Shown: piece after piece, positions 1-10,095 of the stretch
Numbering within the stretch: the stretch's first letter is position 1
Layout: each line of letters begins with the position of its first letter
Assembly: GCA_937967425.1 (NCBI GenBank)
Contig: CALBST010000202.1
Coordinates: 1 to 13,774, forward strand
Length of the DNA stretch: 13,774 bases
Direction of reading: 5' to 3'
Source: an uncultured Caulobacteraceae bacterium
GTDB lineage: Bacteria; Pseudomonadota; Alphaproteobacteria; Caulobacterales; TH1-2
Made by a program: the position numbers and the translations under genes
The notes under the pieces: generated by a model
Told to the model about the DNA's origin: nothing
Databases searched by the model: none
Seen by the model: the letters and a program-made list of their open reading frames with translations, nothing else

Positions 1-98
1 GACGTTGAGTAATTTTCCGGGATTTTGCGGCGCTTTGCGGTTTTTCCGCGCGCGCGGCGCATGCCCTTGTCGTGCTTGGCTTTTCCTCACTAGCTGAA

Positions 99-123
99 CC
101 CTACCAAGCCCTACCGGTCCCTA
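99..123. repeat. Three CCCTA repeats at 10-bp spacing before the integrase
   Basis: CCCTA occurs at 99-103, 109-113 and 119-123, and the first two copies extend to CCCTACC. The spacing is one helical turn, so all copies face the same side of the DNA. Phased short repeats just before a tyrosine recombinase gene are often arm-type integrase sites or part of attL. That role is inferred: no matching att copy was found elsewhere in the window. Confidence 0.4.
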
Positions 124-185
124 TGCCTCCCTCTGCAGCGAATGGGACAGGAACGGGATTTGAGGGATGCAGTGGAGCGTATCAG

Positions 186-1442
186 TTGCCAAGACCATCG
201 AACCACAAGCTCAAATTGACGCGTCGCGCGATCGAAGACTTGCAGCCTGAAGGCCGTCGCTATCGCGTGCTCGACACCGAGATCGCAGGTCTTTCTATCA
301 TGGTGATGCCTTCAGGCAGAAAGACCTGGTCGGTACGCTACACGCCAGAAGGCGCTTCCCCGACTGAAGTCGTGCTTGGCGACTATCCCGGCGTCCTTCC
401 TGAGACCGCACGCGACTACGCTGGCAAGGTGCGCTCCGGCGCGCGGCTTGAAGGCCGCGACCTCGCCAAGGAGCGCAAGGAGGCGCGGCGAACGAATGCC
501 ATTCGCCGTGAGCGCACCGTCGACAAGGTGCTGGAGACCTATATGGCGGATGCGCAGCGGCGGATGCGTGACTGCACGATCGTCCGCCTGCAGTCGACGA
601 TCAGGCTCTACGTGACCCCCAAGTTCGGCAAGAAGAGCATTGGGCTCGTGACCCTGGAAGAGGTCCGGCGCTACGTCGAGGAGATCGAGGATTCGGGCCG
701 GCCAGGGGCAGCGCGCAGCGCGTGTTCGGCCCTCAAAGGCCTGATGGCCTTTGCCCTCCAGCGAGGCCTGATCGAGCGCAACGTGCTGGCGGGCTATCCG
801 GGCCCCAGCATCGCCAGTCGTGAACGTGTCGCCACGCAGGACGAATTGAAGCTCGTTTGGTGGGGCCTGGTGGATATGGCCAAAAATCCGCAAGGCCGAT
901 CCACCGCCCAGGCCCTGCAACTCGCTCTGTTGACCCTACAGCGTCGAGGCGAGGTCGCGGGGCTCAGCAAATCCGAGGTTGACCTCAGCGCGAAGCGTTG
1001 GACCATCCCGGGCAGCAGGACGAAGAACAAGTCCCCGCAGGTCGTGCCGTTGGCTCCGCTCGCCCTAAAGATTGTGGAGGAGGGGTTTGCGCACACTGGA
1101 ACTGACCAGGCATTTGCGGGTCGCAAGATGCTGATTGCGTCGACCGGCCATGCGCTCACGCGCGGCTTCATTCGACTGAGGGAGGATGTGGGCGCCGGCG
1201 ACCTCACGGTGCACGACCTGCGTCGGACCGGCGCGACGATGATGGCGGAGATCGGCATCTCGGGCGATGTGATCAGTCGTATCCTCAATCACACGCCGCC
1301 CGGACCGCAGGTGACAAAGATCTATAATCGCTTCGATTACGAGCCGCAGAAGCGCGAAGCGCTTGAGCGGTGGGAGGCGCACCTGATGTCGATCGTGCGC
1401 AAAAAGGAAGTTGGCGGAGCTCGAAGCGCGGACTTGGGTTGA
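186..1442 (+). CDS. int: Tyrosine recombinase/integrase (P4-like, N-terminal arm-binding domain)
   Basis: Site-specific recombinase expected to integrate and excise the element at whose left edge it sits. Residues are numbered from the longest frame, a GTG at 72. An arm-type DNA-binding domain starts near residue 45 (KLKLTRRAIEDLQ). A core-binding helical domain covers about 145-235 and the catalytic domain about 255-435. The active-site set is complete: Arg291 (QRRGE), Lys318 or Lys320 on the beta hairpin, His381-x-x-Arg384 (HDLRR), His407 (LNH) and the nucleophile Tyr418 (KIYNR). I place the start at TTG 186, with GGAG 8 bp upstream, because the family normally begins just before the arm domain and residues 1-38 of the longer frame overlap phased repeats and look non-coding. 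ATG 123 is the other option. The protein appears intact. Family assignment is firm and the start is uncertain. Confidence 0.9.
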   Translation: MPRPSNHKLKLTRRAIEDLQPEGRRYRVLDTEIAGLSIMVMPSGRKTWSVRYTPEGASPTEVVLGDYPGVLPETARDYAGKVRSGARLEGRDLAKERKEARRTNAIRRERTVDKVLETYMADAQRRMRDCTIVRLQSTIRLYVTPKFGKKSIGLVTLEEVRRYVEEIEDSGRPGAARSACSALKGLMAFALQRGLIERNVLAGYPGPSIASRERVATQDELKLVWWGLVDMAKNPQGRSTAQALQLALLTLQRRGEVAGLSKSEVDLSAKRWTIPGSRTKNKSPQVVPLAPLALKIVEEGFAHTGTDQAFAGRKMLIASTGHALTRGFIRLREDVGAGDLTVHDLRRTGATMMAEIGISGDVISRILNHTPPGPQVTKIYNRFDYEPQKREALERWEAHLMSIVRKKEVGGARSADLG

Positions 1443-2309: not shown

Positions 2310-2632
2310 CGTGAAGCTCCGGGCCGTTCGTCACGCGATTGGAAGGGCCGGCCGCGCAACTGGGCGCCATAGCGACGGCGGCGTTCGTATTGCGACAGCG
2401 CTTCACCGTTGAGGCGCTTCACCTTCCAAATGTTCTTGATGTCGCGAAGCGTTTTGACCTTATGGCACCGCGCGCACATGAGCTGGTCGGGCTTGGCGCG
2501 CCGCCATGTGTTCGGCGTCGAATGTTCGCCGATCAGACCTTCGGTCGCTTCGCACTCATCGACGCAGCAGGCGCCGTTCTGCTTTTCAAGCAGCGCTTCG
2601 TACTCGCGTGCGGTCAGATAGAGACGGCCCAT
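2297..2632 (-). CDS. HNH endonuclease-like protein
   Basis: 111 residues from ATG 2632. The N-terminus LTAREYEALLEKQ is typical of small HNH proteins of phages and mobile elements. A zinc-knuckle pair is visible as Cys22/Cys23...Cys27 and Cys53-ARC56. The catalytic core is read as GEHS (His37 in the place of the usual DH) and CHKVKT (His57). These would form the beta-beta-alpha-metal fold that nicks or cuts DNA. The tail (80-111) is very basic (YERRRRYGAQLRG). The frame stays open upstream to GTG 2734, but that 34-residue extension does not resemble the family and I left it out. The ribosome site before ATG 2632 is weak. The gene is the first of a pair with the small membrane protein at 2309-2067. 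Confidence 0.75.
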   Translation of the reverse strand: MGRLYLTAREYEALLEKQNGACCVDECEATEGLIGEHSTPNTWRRAKPDQLMCARCHKVKTLRDIKNIWKVKRLNGEALSQYERRRRYGAQLRGRPFQSRDERPGASRWKR

Positions 2633-2755
2633 GATGAGACGCGCCTTCTTCAAGCGTTGAAGAGAAGGGCGCTGATGTCTCGACGTGATTGGCTGACGCC
2701 AATCGGTCCCCAGATGTAAGAACAAAACAAGCACAAATTGGTTGAGCGTGCAAGT

Positions 2756-2773
2756 GGTCTCTGCGAGGAGACC
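2756..2773. repeat. Perfect inverted repeat GGTCTC-N6-GAGACC
   Basis: GGTCTC 2756-2761 and GAGACC 2768-2773 flank TGCGAG. It lies in the intergenic stretch between the minus-strand HNH gene and the plus-strand zinc-ribbon gene, next to a locally A-rich patch (2717-2740) that could hold promoters. Its second arm overlaps the ribosome site GAGGAG of the alternative TTG 2779 start. It may be an operator or an mRNA hairpin; low certainty. Confidence 0.3.
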
Positions 2774-2829
2774 GACCGTTGCGAGCAGCAGTGCGAGCGC
2801 GGCGCGTGGGCTACGAGGAGAAGGTGCCG

Positions 2830-3135
2830 GTGAAGTTTGGCCAGCTCGGCAAGTTGAGCGGACTCTATTTCGGCTGCACGGGATGTGCGCGCGGTACGCT
2901 CTTCACTGCGGTCGAGTTGGTGAAACTCTACGGCACAGAGGGGCGCGTCGCTGATCTGGCGAAACGTCTGTCGTGCAAGTTCTGCAAGCAGCACCGGCGG
3001 TGTCCGCCGCGTGTCTATGTTGAAGTCTCGCGGCCGTTTTATACGAAGGCGGAAGCTGCAGCGCTGACGGCGACCAATCTTGATGCGCTTGTCTACACGC
3101 TGGAAAAGCTAAAGCCGCCGAAGAAGATCTCGTGA
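2830..3135 (+). CDS. Zinc-ribbon-like protein with two CXXC knuckles, unknown function
   Basis: 101 residues from GTG 2830. A first knuckle, FGCTGCARGT, is followed by ELVKLYGTEGRVADLAKRL and a second knuckle, CKFCKQHRRC, then VYVEV. This order matches small alphaproteobacterial proteins in which two CXXC pairs flank an LxxLxxxxG...DLxxRL helix, probably a structural zinc site; no enzymatic residues are visible. Start choice: GTG 2830 has GGAG 9 bp upstream and gives the N-terminus usual for such proteins (MKFGQLGKLSGLYF). TTG 2779, with GAGGAG 8 bp upstream, would add 17 mostly basic residues. The C-terminus KLKPPKKIS is basic. It is convergent with the membrane gene at 3244. Function is unknown. 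Confidence 0.6.
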   Translation: MKFGQLGKLSGLYFGCTGCARGTLFTAVELVKLYGTEGRVADLAKRLSCKFCKQHRRCPPRVYVEVSRPFYTKAEAAALTATNLDALVYTLEKLKPPKKIS

Positions 3136-3144
3136 GCGTGCGAA

Positions 3145-3162
3145 CCCGCGCGTTCGCGCGGG
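3145..3162. terminator. GC hairpin between convergent genes
   Basis: CCCGCGCG 3145-3152 and CGCGCGGG 3155-3162 form a perfect stem (7 bp if a 4-base loop is required), with weaker outer pairing of GAGCG and CGCTC. It lies 9 bp after the stop at 3135 and before the converging stop at 3244, the right place for a bidirectional terminator. No T-run follows on either strand. Confidence 0.4.
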
Positions 3163-3243
3163 ACGCGCTCTCGTGAACCGAGCCGCGCTGGTATGGACGA
3201 GTTTGGCGCGTCTCGGCCCTGCGGGCTTCGATCGCTTTCGCGG

Positions 3244-3960
3244 CTACGCCAGCCAGCTGTAAGGCAGCGTGCCCAGCGTGACGCCAACGAGGAGGAAAAT
3301 GGCGCCACAGAATGAAAGATCGAGGCCGCCGGTCGCGTGAGATTTCAATAGATGCCGGAGGTCGCGGATGTCTGTATCCCACTTCGCCGCCTCGGCATCG
3401 ATCTGCGCTTTCAAGCTCTCGTGGCGTTCTTTCGCGAGCGTGCTCGCAGCTTCAAGCGCCGCGTCGTGGCGCTCGATTTCCTTCAGCAGAAATTCGATCT
3501 TCTCGTCGGCTGAGGCGTTTAGCTTCAAGCCGGTCCGAACGCTGCCCGCGCCAAACGCCGTTGCGCCAGTCAGCACGCCGTCCATGCGCAGGAATTGATC
3601 CTTGGGAAAGATGGCGGGCGCCCCACGAAGCCAAGCAATGATCGCCCCATGCAAGGACGGCAAGCCGACTTGGGCGCGCGTCATCAGTACGCCAAGGATG
3701 ACGAACATTACGCCGGCGCACTGCAGCAGCGTGCCAATGCCGCGGGTGTAGTCTTTATGGTCCGGCACGCGAATGAAGAGCACGAAAATCATCGCGGCGC
3801 CGTTCGCTGCGAGCGTGACGAGGCCGAGTGCGCCGAGGCGCAGCCATGCGCCGAATCGATCAGGATAGGTCGTCAGCTGTTTCAGACGTTTAGGGTGTAT
3901 CACGGTCTCGCAGCGCTTACGCATTGCCGCAAGATAGTGACGCTTCGTTCTGGCCGCCAT
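3244..3960 (-). CDS. Membrane protein with central coiled coil, unknown function
   Basis: 238 residues, not recognised. The N-terminus is basic (MAARTKRHYLAAMRKR), followed by hydrophobic helices at about 41-63 (LGALGLVTLAANGAAMIFVL) and 74-93. A loop follows, then a charged heptad-like stretch at about 151-205 (DEKIEFLLKEIERHDAALE... to LRHLLKSH) that should form a coiled coil, and a last helix at about 212-233. The long charged arm lies between membrane anchors. It starts 12 bp after the stop of the HTH gene, so it may be the last gene of the trb-derived operon. The ribosome site is poor for ATG 3960 and no better for ATG 3924, so the start is unsure. The position suggests a mobile-element accessory protein, but no function can be read from it. 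Confidence 0.65.
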   Translation of the reverse strand: MAARTKRHYLAAMRKRCETVIHPKRLKQLTTYPDRFGAWLRLGALGLVTLAANGAAMIFVLFIRVPDHKDYTRGIGTLLQCAGVMFVILGVLMTRAQVGLPSLHGAIIAWLRGAPAIFPKDQFLRMDGVLTGATAFGAGSVRTGLKLNASADEKIEFLLKEIERHDAALEAASTLAKERHESLKAQIDAEAAKWDTDIRDLRHLLKSHATGGLDLSFCGAIFLLVGVTLGTLPYSWLA

Positions 3961-3972
3961 CCGCCTGGTGAT

Positions 3973-4326
3973 TCACTTCTCGCTCGTGCTGGAGCGGCGC
4001 TGTGCGGAAATCCAGGCGTCCAGATCGGCCGGATCGTAGCGCACGGCTCTCGCTGTCGATTTGATGAAGCGCGGCCCTTTGCCGGCGCAGCGCCATTTGT
4101 CCAACGTCGATTTGGAAAGCCCCAGGCGTGCTGCCGCTTCGCGAACCTTGAGTAAGACCGGCGGCGGCGTGACGAAACGGGCCGTCCTGCGCGGGGCCGC
4201 AGGAACGCGAGATGGAGCGGCCTGCGCTTGCCGCGAAGTCTGTCTCGCCGCTTGCGACGTCTGAGTTGCTTCGCCGAAGAGATCGGGTTGCGGCAAACGC
4301 TCGTCCTTGTCGCGCTGTTTCCTCAC
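3973..4326 (-). CDS. Helix-turn-helix DNA-binding protein (AlpA/excisionase-like) at the end of the trb operon
   Basis: 117 residues from GTG 4326. Residues 1-55 are polar, Gln/Ala/Pro-rich and probably disordered (includes QPDLFGEA). The C-terminal half is a winged helix-turn-helix of the MerR/AlpA/excisionase type: LLKVREAAARLGLSKSTLDKW, then GPRFIKS and VRYDPADLDAWI, the usual wing and closing helix. Its GTG overlaps the trbI stop as GTGA, so it is translated with the conjugation genes. In Tn4371-like elements this position more often holds a small DUF2274 gene. A plausible role is control of transfer or excision; this is inferred from fold and position only. An ATG-less start and no clear Shine-Dalgarno sequence suggest reliance on coupling. 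Confidence 0.75.
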   Translation of the reverse strand: MRKQRDKDERLPQPDLFGEATQTSQAARQTSRQAQAAPSRVPAAPRRTARFVTPPPVLLKVREAAARLGLSKSTLDKWRCAGKGPRFIKSTARAVRYDPADLDAWISAQRRSSTSEK

Positions 4327-5453
4327 GGCGGGTAGGGGCGCAGTTGGATATCTTGACTGACGAGCACCCGAACGCGCGCACCAGCGTGTATTCGCAATGT
4401 CGGACGCACGTTGAGTTCACGATCGACGATGCGCGATCCGGTTTGCGCAGCTTGCTGGGCGGCGGCGTCGCCGATGCTCTGAGACAGTCTGGCGTCGTCT
4501 TCGTCTTCACTTTCATTGGCGGCGACGCCAAGCACGGCGGAGATGAGCGAGGCCACAACAATGCGCCCGAGGTGCGCATCAACATCGCCGGTTAGACCGG
4601 CGCTGCCGGCGGCGTCGGCGCCGGGCATGGCGCGCAACGGGATCGACCACCCGTTTGGCATGATGAGCCTGTTCCAAACGACCAGCAGGCGCCGCTCGCC
4701 ATAGGCAGTGTCGGAATCGTAAGAGCCGATCAGCCGCGCGCCCTGCGGGATCAGCAATATCTCGCCAGTGACGCTGTCGAAGACATTTTCGCTCACCTGC
4801 GCGATGACGCGCCCGGGCTGATCGGAATTGAGCGCGGTGATGAGCGCAGCGGAAATCGTTGCGCCGGCTTGGATCGTGTAAGGCGAGCGGGGCGGCGCAT
4901 AGGTTGCATCAAGAACGCCGTCATCACGTCCGCGCTGACCATTGAGGAATTGAGCGCGCCGGCCGCTCTCGGTGAAACTCTGCGCGTTCGCCGGCCCCGC
5001 GACGCGGCGATCGGAGAACAGGATAGAAGAAATGCGCGCCGCCTCAGCTTCCGTTTCAAGCGGTGAGGGACGCGCGGGCTCGTAAGTAGCGGGGCCGGCA
5101 TCGTTCGGTGCAGCCAAAGCCGCTTCAGCAGGCGCGTGATCGCCCCAAAAGTAATCGCGGTCTTCCTCGGGCGGCTGCAACGTTTCGAGATCGTAGTTGG
5201 CAGGCGCTTCACGGATGTTCTCGGGCGGGTTAGCGGTCTGGAGGCTTTGTTGCGTTTCACCATCCGAGCCTGCGGTCCGGTCACGCTCGGATAGTCCGTT
5301 CACCAATGCGAATGCGATGAGCGCGCCTAGACCAAGCGTTCCGGCCATGAGGGTCTTGCGTGACAAGCGTCGTGGCTTGGGCGCAGGCGCACGTATCGCA
5401 GTGATCGGCGGCGCCGCTTTGTGCGGCGGTTCGACTTGCGCTTCGGCGGTCAT
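4323..5453 (-). CDS. trbI: Conjugal transfer protein TrbI (VirB10 family)
   Basis: 376 residues. VirB10-type protein that spans from the inner-membrane channel to the outer-membrane core of a type IV secretion system. Seen here: a short cytoplasmic tail, one inner-membrane helix (about 35-53, LMAGTLGLGALIAFALV), a proline-rich periplasmic linker (about 60-185), then the conserved beta-barrel domain: YTIQAGATISAALITALNSD (192-211), QVSENVFDS, LIPQGARLIGSYDS (234-247), VVWNRLIMPNG (258-268), PGADAAGSAGL (277-287) and the terminal QDIQLRPY (367-374). Length and motifs are normal, so it looks intact. The start overlaps the trbG stop (ATGA) and the end overlaps the HTH gene (GTGA). Without the upstream trb genes it cannot build a transfer machine alone. 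Confidence 0.96.
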   Translation of the reverse strand: MTAEAQVEPPHKAAPPITAIRAPAPKPRRLSRKTLMAGTLGLGALIAFALVNGLSERDRTAGSDGETQQSLQTANPPENIREAPANYDLETLQPPEEDRDYFWGDHAPAEAALAAPNDAGPATYEPARPSPLETEAEAARISSILFSDRRVAGPANAQSFTESGRRAQFLNGQRGRDDGVLDATYAPPRSPYTIQAGATISAALITALNSDQPGRVIAQVSENVFDSVTGEILLIPQGARLIGSYDSDTAYGERRLLVVWNRLIMPNGWSIPLRAMPGADAAGSAGLTGDVDAHLGRIVVASLISAVLGVAANESEDEDDARLSQSIGDAAAQQAAQTGSRIVDRELNVRPTLRIHAGARVRVLVSQDIQLRPYPP

Positions 5454-6292
5454 GGGTGTCTCCCGCGGCGGGGCGCGCGTGGCGCGCTCTGCGCGCCGTC
5501 TCGACTGATGCGCACGACGATTGGGCGTCTATCACCCAGGCGCAGCTCGGCCTCATCGAAGAGGCGGTCGATGACGTAGCGGTCGCCCGAAACTCGGTAG
5601 TTCACCAAAGCCGCTTCGCCACGCTCGGTGATGAAGAGTGGAGGGGCCTCGCTTGTCGCCATCGCCGGCGGAAACTCGATGTAGGTCTTTTGCCCATCGT
5701 CAAACACACGCACCGGGCGCCAGCGCGGGGCGGCGCCGCGAATGGTTCGGATGCGATACGCGAAATTGAATTGTTCGGCGCCATGAGGTCCGCCAGCGAG
5801 GCTCGCGTCGGCGTCGACCGGATAGCGCCAAGCTGTCTGCGCCGAATAGGTTTGTCCAGCGACCGCAATGGCCTCGATCGAATAGGAACGCCGGTCGGTG
5901 ACGAGAACGATGTTGGTGCGGATGCTGGCGCGCGTCGGCTTCACGAGCAGCATGGCGCGTGGACTGGCGATATCGCCACCAATGGCTTGCTCGACCATCC
6001 AGCGCGTGGTGTCGCCCGCCGCTACGGTCACGATGGCTTCGCCGGGCTCCAGCAGGATGGTGGAGATGAAGCCGGGCGCGCCATAGACCTCGTAGATCGC
6101 GCCTGGCGCGTAGTCGTAAACTTGGGTGGCGTCGGTGAAGTTCGCAGGGTCAGGGCGTCTGCGGGCTTCGGCGTTCGCTTCGCTCAAAGCGGTGACCGGC
6201 GTAATCGCGCGGGCGCGCGGTGTTTGAGCCTCTGCGTTGGAAGTCATGCACGCCAATGCAACCGCAGCGAATAGGAGAGACCTCCGCGTCAT
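5450..6292 (-). CDS. trbG: Conjugal transfer protein TrbG (VirB9/CagX family)
   Basis: 280 residues. Periplasmic/outer-membrane component that with VirB7- and VirB10-type proteins forms the outer core of a type IV secretion channel. A signal peptide covers residues 1-22 (SLLFAAVALACMTSNAEA). The N-domain includes VYDYAPGAIYEVYGAPGFI, ILLEPGEAI and DTTRW, followed by LLVKPTRASIRTNIVLVTDRR and Y-x-A-x-x-AWRYP. The C-terminal CagX domain has FDDGQKTYIEFPPAM, PPLFI and VNYRVSGDRYVIDRLFDEAELRLG. The ATG at 6292 overlaps the stop of the trbF remnant as ATGA, and the stop overlaps trbI. The protein appears complete. Confidence 0.95.
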   Translation of the reverse strand: MTRRSLLFAAVALACMTSNAEAQTPRARAITPVTALSEANAEARRRPDPANFTDATQVYDYAPGAIYEVYGAPGFISTILLEPGEAIVTVAAGDTTRWMVEQAIGGDIASPRAMLLVKPTRASIRTNIVLVTDRRSYSIEAIAVAGQTYSAQTAWRYPVDADASLAGGPHGAEQFNFAYRIRTIRGAAPRWRPVRVFDDGQKTYIEFPPAMATSEAPPLFITERGEAALVNYRVSGDRYVIDRLFDEAELRLGDRRPIVVRISRDGAQSAPRAPRRGRHP

Positions 6293-6477
6293 GGCTGCAC
6301 GCGCGGTGACACGGACGCCGGTGTTTCCGGCGACATCGAGAACTCGGTGATGAAAAGACCGAGTGGATTGTGCGTCAAGGCGTCGGCGTTGCGTGGACGA
6401 TCAAAGCGGACTGTGAAGAGACCGGTGAAGCTTTGCGCCGAGCGCGCGTCGGCGCCGTGCGTCGCCTCGATCCAGGA
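6289..6477 (-). pseudogene. trbF: trbF 3' remnant (VirB8 family), 5' part lost
   Basis: About 62 codons in frame with the stop at 6289-6291 read SWIEATHGADARSAQSF, then GLFTVRFDRPRNADAL and NPLGLFITEFSMSPE. This is the C-terminal end of TrbF/VirB8, where W-x-E, the P-P/R-x-x-x-AL turn and NPLG(L/I)(F/Y)(V/I) are family hallmarks. Upstream of about 6478 the homology stops abruptly and the DNA becomes a TonB-dependent receptor read in another frame. The inner-membrane helix and most of the periplasmic domain are missing (TrbF is normally over 200 residues). Its stop still overlaps the trbG start (ATGA), the normal trbF-trbG arrangement, which confirms the identity. Confidence 0.88.
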
Positions 6478-7297
6478 CGCTGCCGTAGGTCGCTGACGCG
6501 CCATCGGCGAGGACTTCGACGCGCTCGATCGCCGCGAGCGGGATGGCGGAAATGTCGACGAAATTGCCCAAGCCTGCAGGCGCGAGTCGCCGGCCGTTGA
6601 GCAGCGTAAGCGTCGCGTCCGATCCAAGCCCGCGTAGGTCCACGGTTGAGCCGAGGGCGATATTGTTTCCGGGCGCGGTGGAGTTGAGCTGGGTGAGTTC
6701 GCCTTGGCTTCCGGGAAATACTTGGGGCAGCGTCTGAAGCAAATCCTGCACGGTAGTGCGACCGCTCTCCTCGATGTCGCCGCGATCGAGAGTGAGCAGG
6801 TTTGCCCCCGCGGGCACAGCGCCACGAATGCGCGTGCCGGTGACGACGATCTCTTCTTCGTCTTCGGTTCCGCTCACCGCCGCACTGGATGTCTGCGCAG
6901 TTTCAGCGCCGCTCGCGGCGCTCGCCTGCTGGGGGCGTGATGATCGCTCCTGAGCCAGCACAAGATTGCCGCCGCTGATGCGGCCGTTGTAGCCGGAGCG
7001 CGCAAGCAAAAGATCGAGCGCTTGTTGGCGTGTGTAGGAACCACGCAATTGCGGAGAGGGGAGTCGCCGCAGATCGTCTGAGAAATAGAGTGCATTGACG
7101 CGCGCTTGCCGCGCGAATTCGCTCAGGGCGCTGCTGAGAGGCTGAGCGGCGATATCGAATTCAATCCGCTCATCGCTGATCTGCTGGATGTCTTGCGCGA
7201 GCGCCGGTTCGGCAGCGGTGGCGCCCATCGCGCCGAGAATGAGAGCGGTTGCCAGCTTTCGCCGGCGGTCATCCCGCTTGGTGGTCTTGCCCTTCAT
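6401..7297 (-). pseudogene. Truncated TonB-dependent receptor (STN + partial plug, barrel missing)
   Basis: The frame encodes 298 residues, of which about 273 are receptor. A signal peptide covers residues 1-35 (ends AAEPALAQ). The STN domain (about 43-115, FDIAAQPLSSALSEFARQA to GGNLVLA) is the kind that signals to FecR-type anti-sigma factors. An acidic linker (EDEEEIVVTGTRIRG) leads to the plug domain (about 160-273) with VQDLLQTLPQV, LRGLGSDATLTLLNGRRL and IERVEVLADGASATYGS. Receptors normally continue with DAVAGVVN and a barrel of several hundred residues. Here the sequence changes at about 6479 into trbF DNA, giving 25 out-of-frame residues to the stop at 6401. The ATG has a strong GGAGGGGG about 5 bp upstream. 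No fecI/fecR pair is nearby. It could be expressed as a soluble STN-plug protein but cannot transport. Confidence 0.88.
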
Positions 7298-7443
7298 GGT
7301 TTCCCCCTCCGCTCTTGAACGAGCGTTGTCGGGAGGAAGACACTTCAGCTCGAAAACTGCGCCACGTCTGCGCGAACAATGTTTGCGGATGGAGGACTAG
7401 CCCGCAGACACGCGCTCTCCGATGATCGCGGAGGAGGAACGCG

Positions 7444-7806
7444 ATGAGAGGCATGGGCGATTTTCAAAGGGCGCAGATGAAGCATCGCGATGCGCGCGTC
7501 AGCGCGATGGCGCAGCATTTGCGCGCGGCGGTCGACCTCTGGGAAGAGATTCAGCTCTATCCATTCAAGAAAGAGGAGCCCGCCGAGCCGCCGCCTCCGC
7601 CACCAGCGCCGCCGCCCGTCGCAGCGTTGCCATCAGAGAAGCTTGCGTACGGAATCAAAGAGGCAGCGATCGCTCTTGGGATCAGTAAGACGACGATCTG
7701 GCGCGCGATGAAAGAGGGAAAGGTGTCGGCAGTGAAGGTGGGCAATCGCACGCTCATAAGGACGGAAGCGTTGCAGGCTTGGCATTCCGCTCGCGTCGCG
7801 GGATGA
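7444..7806 (+). CDS. Excisionase-like helix-turn-helix protein with polyproline linker
   Basis: 120 residues. Residues 1-40 are helical and charged (MKHRDARVSAMAQHLRAAVDLWEEIQ). Residues 41-62 form a Pro-rich linker (EEPAEPPPPPPAPPP). Residues 66-118 are a MerR/excisionase-type winged helix-turn-helix: YGIKEAAIALGISKTTIWRAM, then GKVSAVKVGNRTLIRTEAL and the closing helix QAWHSA. Proteins of this build serve as recombination directionality factors or repressors of mobile elements. A very strong GAGGAGG lies 7 bp before ATG 7444. It is divergent from the receptor fragment (gap 7298-7443, which must hold both promoters) and is followed after 10 bp by a short ORF. It is a second HTH gene, different from that at 4326-3973, and is a candidate partner of the integrase at the other end; this is inference. 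Confidence 0.8.
   Translation: MRGMGDFQRAQMKHRDARVSAMAQHLRAAVDLWEEIQLYPFKKEEPAEPPPPPPAPPPVAALPSEKLAYGIKEAAIALGISKTTIWRAMKEGKVSAVKVGNRTLIRTEALQAWHSARVAG

Positions 7807-8652: not shown

Positions 8653-10095
<1,443 letters not shown>

Follow-up and report, generated by a model that had tools for sequence, protein, structure and literature searches.

A receptor–trbF junction in a decayed lasso-carrying conjugative element: probable repeated deletion at preferred breakpoints sealed by end joining

In the window (the whole 13,774-nucleotide stretch of DNA analysed here), the 5′ part of a TonB-dependent receptor gene is directly followed by the 3′ part of the conjugation gene trbF (Table 1), which raises the question of how the two came to be joined. 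The junction lies where the preliminary description had placed it: the receptor part ends with codon 273, at 6479, joined to trbF codon 175, and the TrbF reading frame (SWIEATHGADARS...) starts in another frame at 6477. The resulting open reading frame (ORF) thus consists of receptor codons 1–273 followed by 25 residues read from trbF DNA in the wrong frame; the proper TrbF frame (SWIEATHGADARSAQSFTGLF...) runs over 62 codons from 6477 to 6289, its 3′ end overlapping the start of trbG. The fused ORF scores above the cut-off with Pfam Plug and below it with STN (21.4 versus 28.4 bits), and, in agreement with the barrel loss claimed in that description, the Pfam scan found no receptor barrel in it. 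With an incomplete Plug and no barrel it would not be a working receptor, and it is most likely a dead receptor stub, trbG and trbI being leftovers. The loss of trbB–L was also claimed rightly: none of these genes was found in the scanned ORFs, none is evident in the ORF list, and the coupling protein is absent as well. The trbG and trbI genes of the window stand without the rest of the transfer machine, which an integrative conjugative element (ICE) possesses in complete form, and the lack of a coupling protein and of trbB–L among the window ORFs makes the window a remnant.

Table 1. Features of the window around the junction and in the rest of the element
Feature	Position	Strand	Evidence
Truncated 5′ receptor gene, STN + Plug, codons 1–273	6479..7297	-	Plug 59.8 bits; 96% identity to G003 receptor codons 1–272
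Junction, receptor ...GGCAGCG joined to TCCTGGATCGAGG... of trbF	6477..6479	-	Two-sided alignment to G003 and G002; same in G034
Fused 298-aa ORF, receptor codons 1–273 + 25 out-of-frame trbF codons	6401..7297	-	Protein on 12 contigs
trbF 3′ remnant (VirB8 family), 62 codons, own start missing	6289..6477	-	Intact L003 TrbF matches VirB8 and NF010446
trbG (VirB9/CagX family), complete ORF	5450..6292	-	Pfam CagX 193 bits; TIGR02775 TrbG_Ti 184.5 bits, above cut-off
trbI (VirB10 family), complete ORF	4323..5453	-	Pfam TrbI 192 bits
HTH gene after trbI	3973..4326	-	Pfam HTH_17 above cut-off; relatives fused in P0016, P0020, P0024, P0026
Tyrosine integrase of the element	72..1442	+	Pfam Phage_integrase, Arm-DNA-bind_3; ORF as listed
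Divergent HTH gene adjoining the receptor	7444..7806	+	Also beside the receptor in G002 and G003
Shine-Dalgarno-like GGAGGGGG of the receptor gene	7303..7310	-	Identical in G003

A TrbG search of genome contigs gave 30 loci, among which L001–L004 are 69–82% identical (by their record titles, L002 is Terricaulis and L003 Hyphomonadaceae); the intact TrbF of L003 scores 155 bits with Pfam VirB8 and 202.9 bits, above the cut-off, with NF010446 TrbF. The receptor stub was searched in the four genomes behind these loci. The search in relatives recommended by the preliminary description uncovered intact receptors and an undeleted trb order. Receptor frames are intact in G003 (1026 aa, about 96% identical to the stub) and in G002 (1062 aa, 85%), each flanked by the divergent HTH gene that also adjoins the window receptor; its G003 counterpart contains one internal stop. 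The order is undeleted in four relatives, read on the contigs in G003 and G002 and detected by tblastn with the G003 ORFs in G014 and G048: HTH gene, receptor, S9 peptidase, Asn-synthase protein, Transglut_core3 protein, GntR, LuxI, two LuxR-type genes, coupling protein, trbB ... trbE, trbJ, trbL, trbF, trbG and trbI. The family scan of the G003 transfer genes covered trbB, trbE, trbJ, trbL, trbF, trbG, trbI and the coupling protein; TrbB, TrbE, TrbF and TrbG are above the NCBIfam cut-offs, TrbL and TrbI above those of Pfam, the coupling protein is recognized by Pfam, and TrbJ narrowly misses its own (95.3 versus 100.55). G002 has an integrase, and its order is undeleted, although frame breaks interrupt several genes, trbF and trbI among them. 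In the window integrase, family matches start at residue 49, and it is 93.6% identical to the L002 integrase over the main aligned stretch. The undeleted relatives possess the coupling protein and type IV secretion genes and, as seen in G002, the integrase that characterize ICEs. They resemble P-type (trb) ICEs in having the coupling protein and the trbB, E, J, L, F, G, I order and differ from them by a lasso-peptide cluster that separates the receptor from the coupling protein, whereas the window differs by retaining the trbF tail, trbG and trbI only. The undeleted order in relatives indicates that the window arose by deletion from a conjugative element, and its parent is an ICE, of Hyphomonadaceae by record titles. 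On the G003 contig the receptor occupies 2336–5317 and trbF 22451–23161; the window edges map to 3155 and 22975, hence about 19.8 kb are missing. Besides the genes named in the preliminary description, this loss includes the lasso-peptide cluster, the luxI/luxR genes and the coupling protein. The proposal of an illegitimate-recombination deletion in a conjugative element is therefore borne out by the undeleted relatives; the event is, however, no isolated case, as breakpoints recur (see below).

In the undeleted element, the peptidase is a lasso isopeptidase of the AtxE2 family (NF033523, 577 bits versus a cut-off of 400) and the Transglut_core3 protein is a lasso B2 protein (NF033537, 69 versus 33 bits); the Asn-synthase protein scores 81 bits with Pfam Asn_synthase, every NCBIfam cyclase model being below its cut-off. 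All four undeleted elements carry two small precursor-like ORFs, the first ending with ...EVTQGIYDPVKKENLVTPQARDF and the second with ...EVTLGVWDPIFKENFV(S/T)PHMRDM (...DVTRGIWDPILKENFVLPQMRDM in G002), and the first precursor of G048 is just above the cut-off of PF24178 Subterisin (28.3 versus 27). From lasso-peptide rules, the core presumably starts at the Gly after EVTx, with the ring closing on Glu9. Isopeptidase, B2 protein, cyclase and precursor, the components of a lasso-peptide cluster, are thus all found in the undeleted relatives. The likeness to astexin/subterisin-type clusters extends to the two precursor-like ORFs, B2, the cyclase-like protein, the AtxE2-family isopeptidase and the receptor; the difference is that the cluster lies here within a conjugative element, beside luxI/luxR, and that the window keeps the receptor stub only. 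The segment 2336–14292 of L058 (G003 contig 4) contains the lasso cluster and receptor with luxI and two luxR-type genes inside the conjugative element, and lasso cluster and luxI/luxR lie inside the element also in G002, G014 and G048. In the undeleted relatives, a conjugative element carries a lasso-peptide cluster together with quorum-sensing genes belonging to that cluster, and such a cluster within an ICE is apparently undescribed in the part of the literature covered by our search.

The junction itself is blunt, without IS or repeat, as first described: the window sequence and its alignment to relatives reveal no extra DNA or IS, and there is no in-register direct repeat of at least 8 nt in G003, G002 or G014 up to 50 bases away from the two parental points. 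Over this distance, direct exact matches reach at most 8 nt in G003, out of register, and none of at least 8 nt was found in G002 and G014. The short shared GGCAGCG initially suggested is missing from the trbF of relatives, which reads TGGCAGGT(A/G)AG(C/T)TGG at the junction, and the in-register overlap is 0–1 base, counted against relatives. A crossover core common to both partners, as site-specific recombination uses, is not seen by eye at the breakpoints, and the window junction shows no IS or repeat that could have mediated the deletion.

Among 60 family genomes, G034 has a TrbF tail only (residues 171–236), straight after a receptor fragment with a 310-aa open frame (the tail-only TrbF match of G002 is the second half of its frame-broken trbF). 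The G034 junction (ATTTATGGCAGCGAGCTGGATCGAAGC, versus ACCTACGGCAGCGTCCTGGATCGAGGC in the window) is that of the window within 1–2 bases, in the same wrong frame, and again yields a 298-aa ORF. A relative with an intact gene of the same fused structure had been named as evidence against the chimeric junction. G034 has this form, but the coupling protein and trbB–L gave no match in 18 kb of G034 (tblastn with G003 ORFs), and the absence of trbB–L makes it a second deletion, not an intact ancestral gene. The G034 remnant lies in L120 (contig 3, 548000–566000), where it comes after a presumed patatin-like ORF and after large ORFs whose start we take to be TIR-like; a presumed Rhs-like ORF follows the HTH gene.

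A protein search with the fused ORF gave 309 matches at E ≤ 0.001, the best 120 of which were examined (the window's own is P0002). Twenty-nine sequences were read individually and all 120 tails were compared with 27 receptor frames of at least 600 aa from the loci; this comparison is crude, some known fusion tails having scored as aligned, and as many short tails among the 120 are unassigned, fusions may have been missed. At least 18 proteins besides P0002, among these best 120 of 309, have a receptor N-terminus joined to a fragment of a conjugation gene: TrbF (P0003, P0006), TrbI (P0010, P0027, P0028, P0029, P0063, P0119), the HTH gene after trbI (P0016, P0020, P0024, P0026), a relaxase (P0011, P0014, P0017, P0021, P0023) or the coupling protein (P0052). 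Additional protein searches provided a further receptor–TrbI fusion, P0122. The relaxase assignment derives from full-length relatives in G037 and G042, which score 22.9 and 24.8 with Pfam Relaxase (cut-off 24.6) and 172–173 bits with RlxS, far below the model cut-off of 850. We left out of the counts P0031, whose tail is a G003 ORF between GntR and luxI that overlaps luxI on the opposite strand, P0012, whose tail has no assignment, and P0230, with an out-of-frame HTH tail judged by eye. P0221 carries the TrbI tail from PIMPNGWS on an unrelated, non-receptor N-terminus, so that the TrbI breakpoint may not be receptor-specific; it was used as a fused row in the TrbI tree and excluded from the endpoint simulation (see below).

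Breakpoints were located with split alignments, for which the intact proteins of G003 served as reference except for the HTH gene, which was aligned to that of the window. The recurrent points are S-W in TrbF, between N and GWS in TrbI, between G and PRF in the HTH gene, and near HIVLRG in the relaxase. TrbF resumes at codon 175 in P0006 as in the window, and within about 1 base of it in P0003, as read from the protein; this breakpoint is also that of G034. The window and P0003 combine the same trbF point with a receptor broken at codons 273 and 248, respectively. In five of the seven receptor–TrbI fusions (P0027, P0028, P0029, P0063, P0119) TrbI resumes at codon 269–270, its receptor partners being codons 73 (twice), 108–111 (twice) and 150; the two others resume at TrbI 264 and 103. 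The HTH gene resumes at codon 84–85 in four fusions out of four, and the relaxase at a T/S-H-(I/V)-V motif, or about 4 residues before it, in five out of five. Nine TrbI endpoints (P0010, P0027, P0028, P0029, P0063, P0119, P0122, G052 and G043), treated as independent, were compared with 200,000 uniform draws over codons 100–370, a range that approximates findable fusions and in which long fusions are under-sampled. Six endpoints within two codons occurred in none of the draws (largest number, 4), and eight within ten codons were not reached either (largest number, 6).

Junctions were read at the DNA level in four cases, the window, G034, G052 and G043, and from proteins for the other fusions. 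The coupling protein is joined to TrbI in frame at GWS (codon 269–270) in G052, and out of frame at codon 261 in G043. By comparison with relatives, the overlap is about 2 bases in G034 and 2 in G052. Such fusions are few: one of the window/G034 kind was found for the 36 receptor matches in family genomes (G034), and two further receptor matches have shorter frames, of 649 aa and of 464 aa, the latter running to the sequence end. In 398 genomes of the order, queries made of TrbI fusions had matches in 37, and among those followed up only G052 and G043 carry fusions. The plasmid search yielded only relatives below 60% identity for the receptor, and relatives at 60–80% DNA identity for trbG/trbI, none of which matched the query over 80% of its length; viral contigs contained no relative of the TrbI fusions or of the receptor stub. 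The G052 element seems to carry a second deletion. No receptor or lasso-cluster match was found on its 30-kb contig (tblastn, matches over more than 30% of the query). From 5101–5196 onwards in L114 (G052), the start of the divergent HTH gene adjoins a LuxR-type gene. The coupling protein has a match in 51 of 60 family genomes; at five loci in G047, G051, G058 and G060 it is matched as two pieces meeting near residue 414–418, a recurring break of another kind.

What these breakpoints have in common was looked for in several ways. By comparison with relatives, the TrbF and TrbI points have 0–3 bases in common with the receptor side; in G003 the figure is 1–3 at TrbI 264–270 and TrbF 175, a value reached by 9–48% of random in-frame pairs, and microhomology is not supported as the driving force at TrbI 269 and TrbF 175. 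The HTH point, with 5 shared bases (about 1% of pairs) and 12 of 24 in the neighbourhood, could have been produced by slippage. Local hairpins are not supported either, as endpoint percentiles are mostly unremarkable; the lowest are 2.7%, on the upstream side of receptor codon 70, and 3.2%, on the downstream side of TrbF 174. No common core motif was seen by eye at the breakpoints, so that "preferred" is a description of these positions and not an explanation. Group II intron exon shuffling, relaxase nic-like sites and shufflon-type recombinases were dropped by reasoning alone; so was a Cas9-like cut three bases from NGG, which fits TrbF and TrbI but not the receptor, the coupling protein or the HTH gene. 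A Ku gene is present in nine of nine genomes searched, including G034, G043 and G052, and the junctions are compatible with Ku/LigD end joining, the presence of Ku being no proof of its use.

We propose, with a probability of about 0.7, that the window is a decayed lasso-carrying ICE produced by recurrent deletion through end joining between preferred breakpoints. Breaks would occur preferentially at a few positions, located in the genes for the receptor, the coupling protein, TrbF, TrbI, the HTH protein and the relaxase, and Ku-type end joining would probably seal them using little homology. In the window, a deletion of about 20 kb welded receptor codon 273 to trbF codon 175, and the receptor stub, trbG and trbI remain. 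The decay of conjugative elements is usually regarded as random; here, separate cutting and rejoining events in related elements appear to have used a common small set of points, unlike what random deletion predicts. The classical deletion hot spots of lacI re-use endpoints through short repeats; endpoints are likewise re-used here, but the number of bases shared is only 0–3 at the points in TrbF and TrbI. Re-use of breakpoints by separate lineages in the absence of repeats would implicate fragile sites or a disarming nuclease. A more specific idea, which we regard as less probable, is that an undescribed break-directing process, encoded by the element or by the host, cuts fixed positions in conserved motifs of the genes named above, the ends then being joined by end joining in many combinations; if true, conjugative elements would be recurrently disarmed in a position-specific manner. 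Our search on deletion hot spots and ICE remnants gave nothing usable in the part of that literature that it reached.

We consider it doubtful that a few old deletion alleles were instead spread by recombination between homologous flanks, through transformation or gene-transfer agents, with junctions shared by descent. The purging of mobile elements by transfer of deletion alleles is an established idea (PMC4774983, PMC5850275), and in the former a resident element reportedly loses functions as in our case (PMC4774983); the difference is that new junctions seem to be made here. The window is mosaic, its receptor side being close to G003 and its trb side not: dS between the window and G003 is 0.19 for the receptor part, 0.85 for trbI and 1.73 for trbG. 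Along the receptor stub itself, differences from G003 amount to 9 of 322 positions, then 38 of 350 and, in the part that reaches the junction, 2 of 148. These uneven differences and the differing dS values indicate that the two sides of the junction have different histories; the receptor region may have been recently exchanged between elements, or the join may have been made between two elements, for example in a tandem array. The purging model reportedly needs homologous flanks on the donor allele. Consistent with movement between fusion types, or with recent sharing by them, P0119 (a TrbI fusion) and P0020 (an HTH fusion) are 96% identical over 74 receptor residues. On a tree built from 109 TrbI tails, 10 changes are required to account for the 10 fused rows, versus a mean of 9.7 with shuffled labels, and as the fused tails do not group in this weakly resolved tree the events look largely independent. 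However, of its 101 inner branches 61 are open, those with strong support impose no more than 2 changes, which would suit spread alleles, and G043 is on a long branch, so that flank exchange between elements could inflate the number of origins. For four fused rows examined, the nearest row is 94–98% identical, and for three it is an intact gene; that of P0029 is the window's own complete trbI. Against shared descent, the receptor DNA of the window is G003-like up to the junction, whereas the receptor part of G034 is nearest to another intact receptor (57.5% identity, versus 43.4% to the window's). With only two differences from G003 in the last 148 nt, the window event looks recent and not inherited together with that of G034. 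Intact G003 is the closest match to the receptor part of the window (95.6%) and also to that of P0003 (92.7%), yet the two break the receptor at different codons. The partners joined at one TrbI point are the coupling protein and receptor codons 73, about 109 and 150, a variety that is impossible from a single allele. The receptor parts of the four HTH fusions, at best 70–73% identical to each other, speak neither for nor against independence.

Preferred breakpoints also account better for these data than plain random illegitimate deletion, the hot spots then being an artefact of what a protein search finds, which we regard as improbable. Short overlaps at several junctions would suit random deletion, and a search bias is suggested by the reading frames: only one of the four DNA-level junctions (G052) is in frame versus most fusions of the protein set, an in-frame excess best read as such a bias. 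However, this bias affects frame and length and not obviously position, TrbI endpoints are clustered far beyond uniform draws, and the window and G034 have both endpoints in common at the DNA level. It is very improbable that the receptor stub, trbG, trbI and HTH gene form a functional, conserved mini-element, for instance a satellite borrowing a complete conjugation machine: trbG and trbI are open and the fused ORF has 298 aa in both the window and G034, and the window keeps an integrase, but other fusions retain merely a TrbI or HTH stub, the window event looks recent, and the TrbI tree places G034 together with P0227, not with the window. An assembly or library chimera, raised at the outset and suggested by a blunt junction without repeat, is just as hard to sustain given that the identical 298-aa fused protein was found on 12 contigs by protein search, that the same junction sits on a 586-kb contig of G034 and that exact points recur; the window junction is, from these comparisons, a genuine deletion.

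In the window the receptor signals may possibly now drive trbG–trbI. The preliminary description credited the receptor gene with a strong ribosome site and a promoter; the former is confirmed by the Shine-Dalgarno-like sequence (Table 1), and the latter is not, no sigma-70-like promoter having been found at 7200–7560. Elsewhere in the window, 8704–10095 encodes a tyrosine phenol-lyase (735.4 bits versus an NCBIfam cut-off of 720.7), the gene of which adjoins a SnoaL/limonene-epoxide-hydrolase-like gene and a SLAC1-type channel gene.
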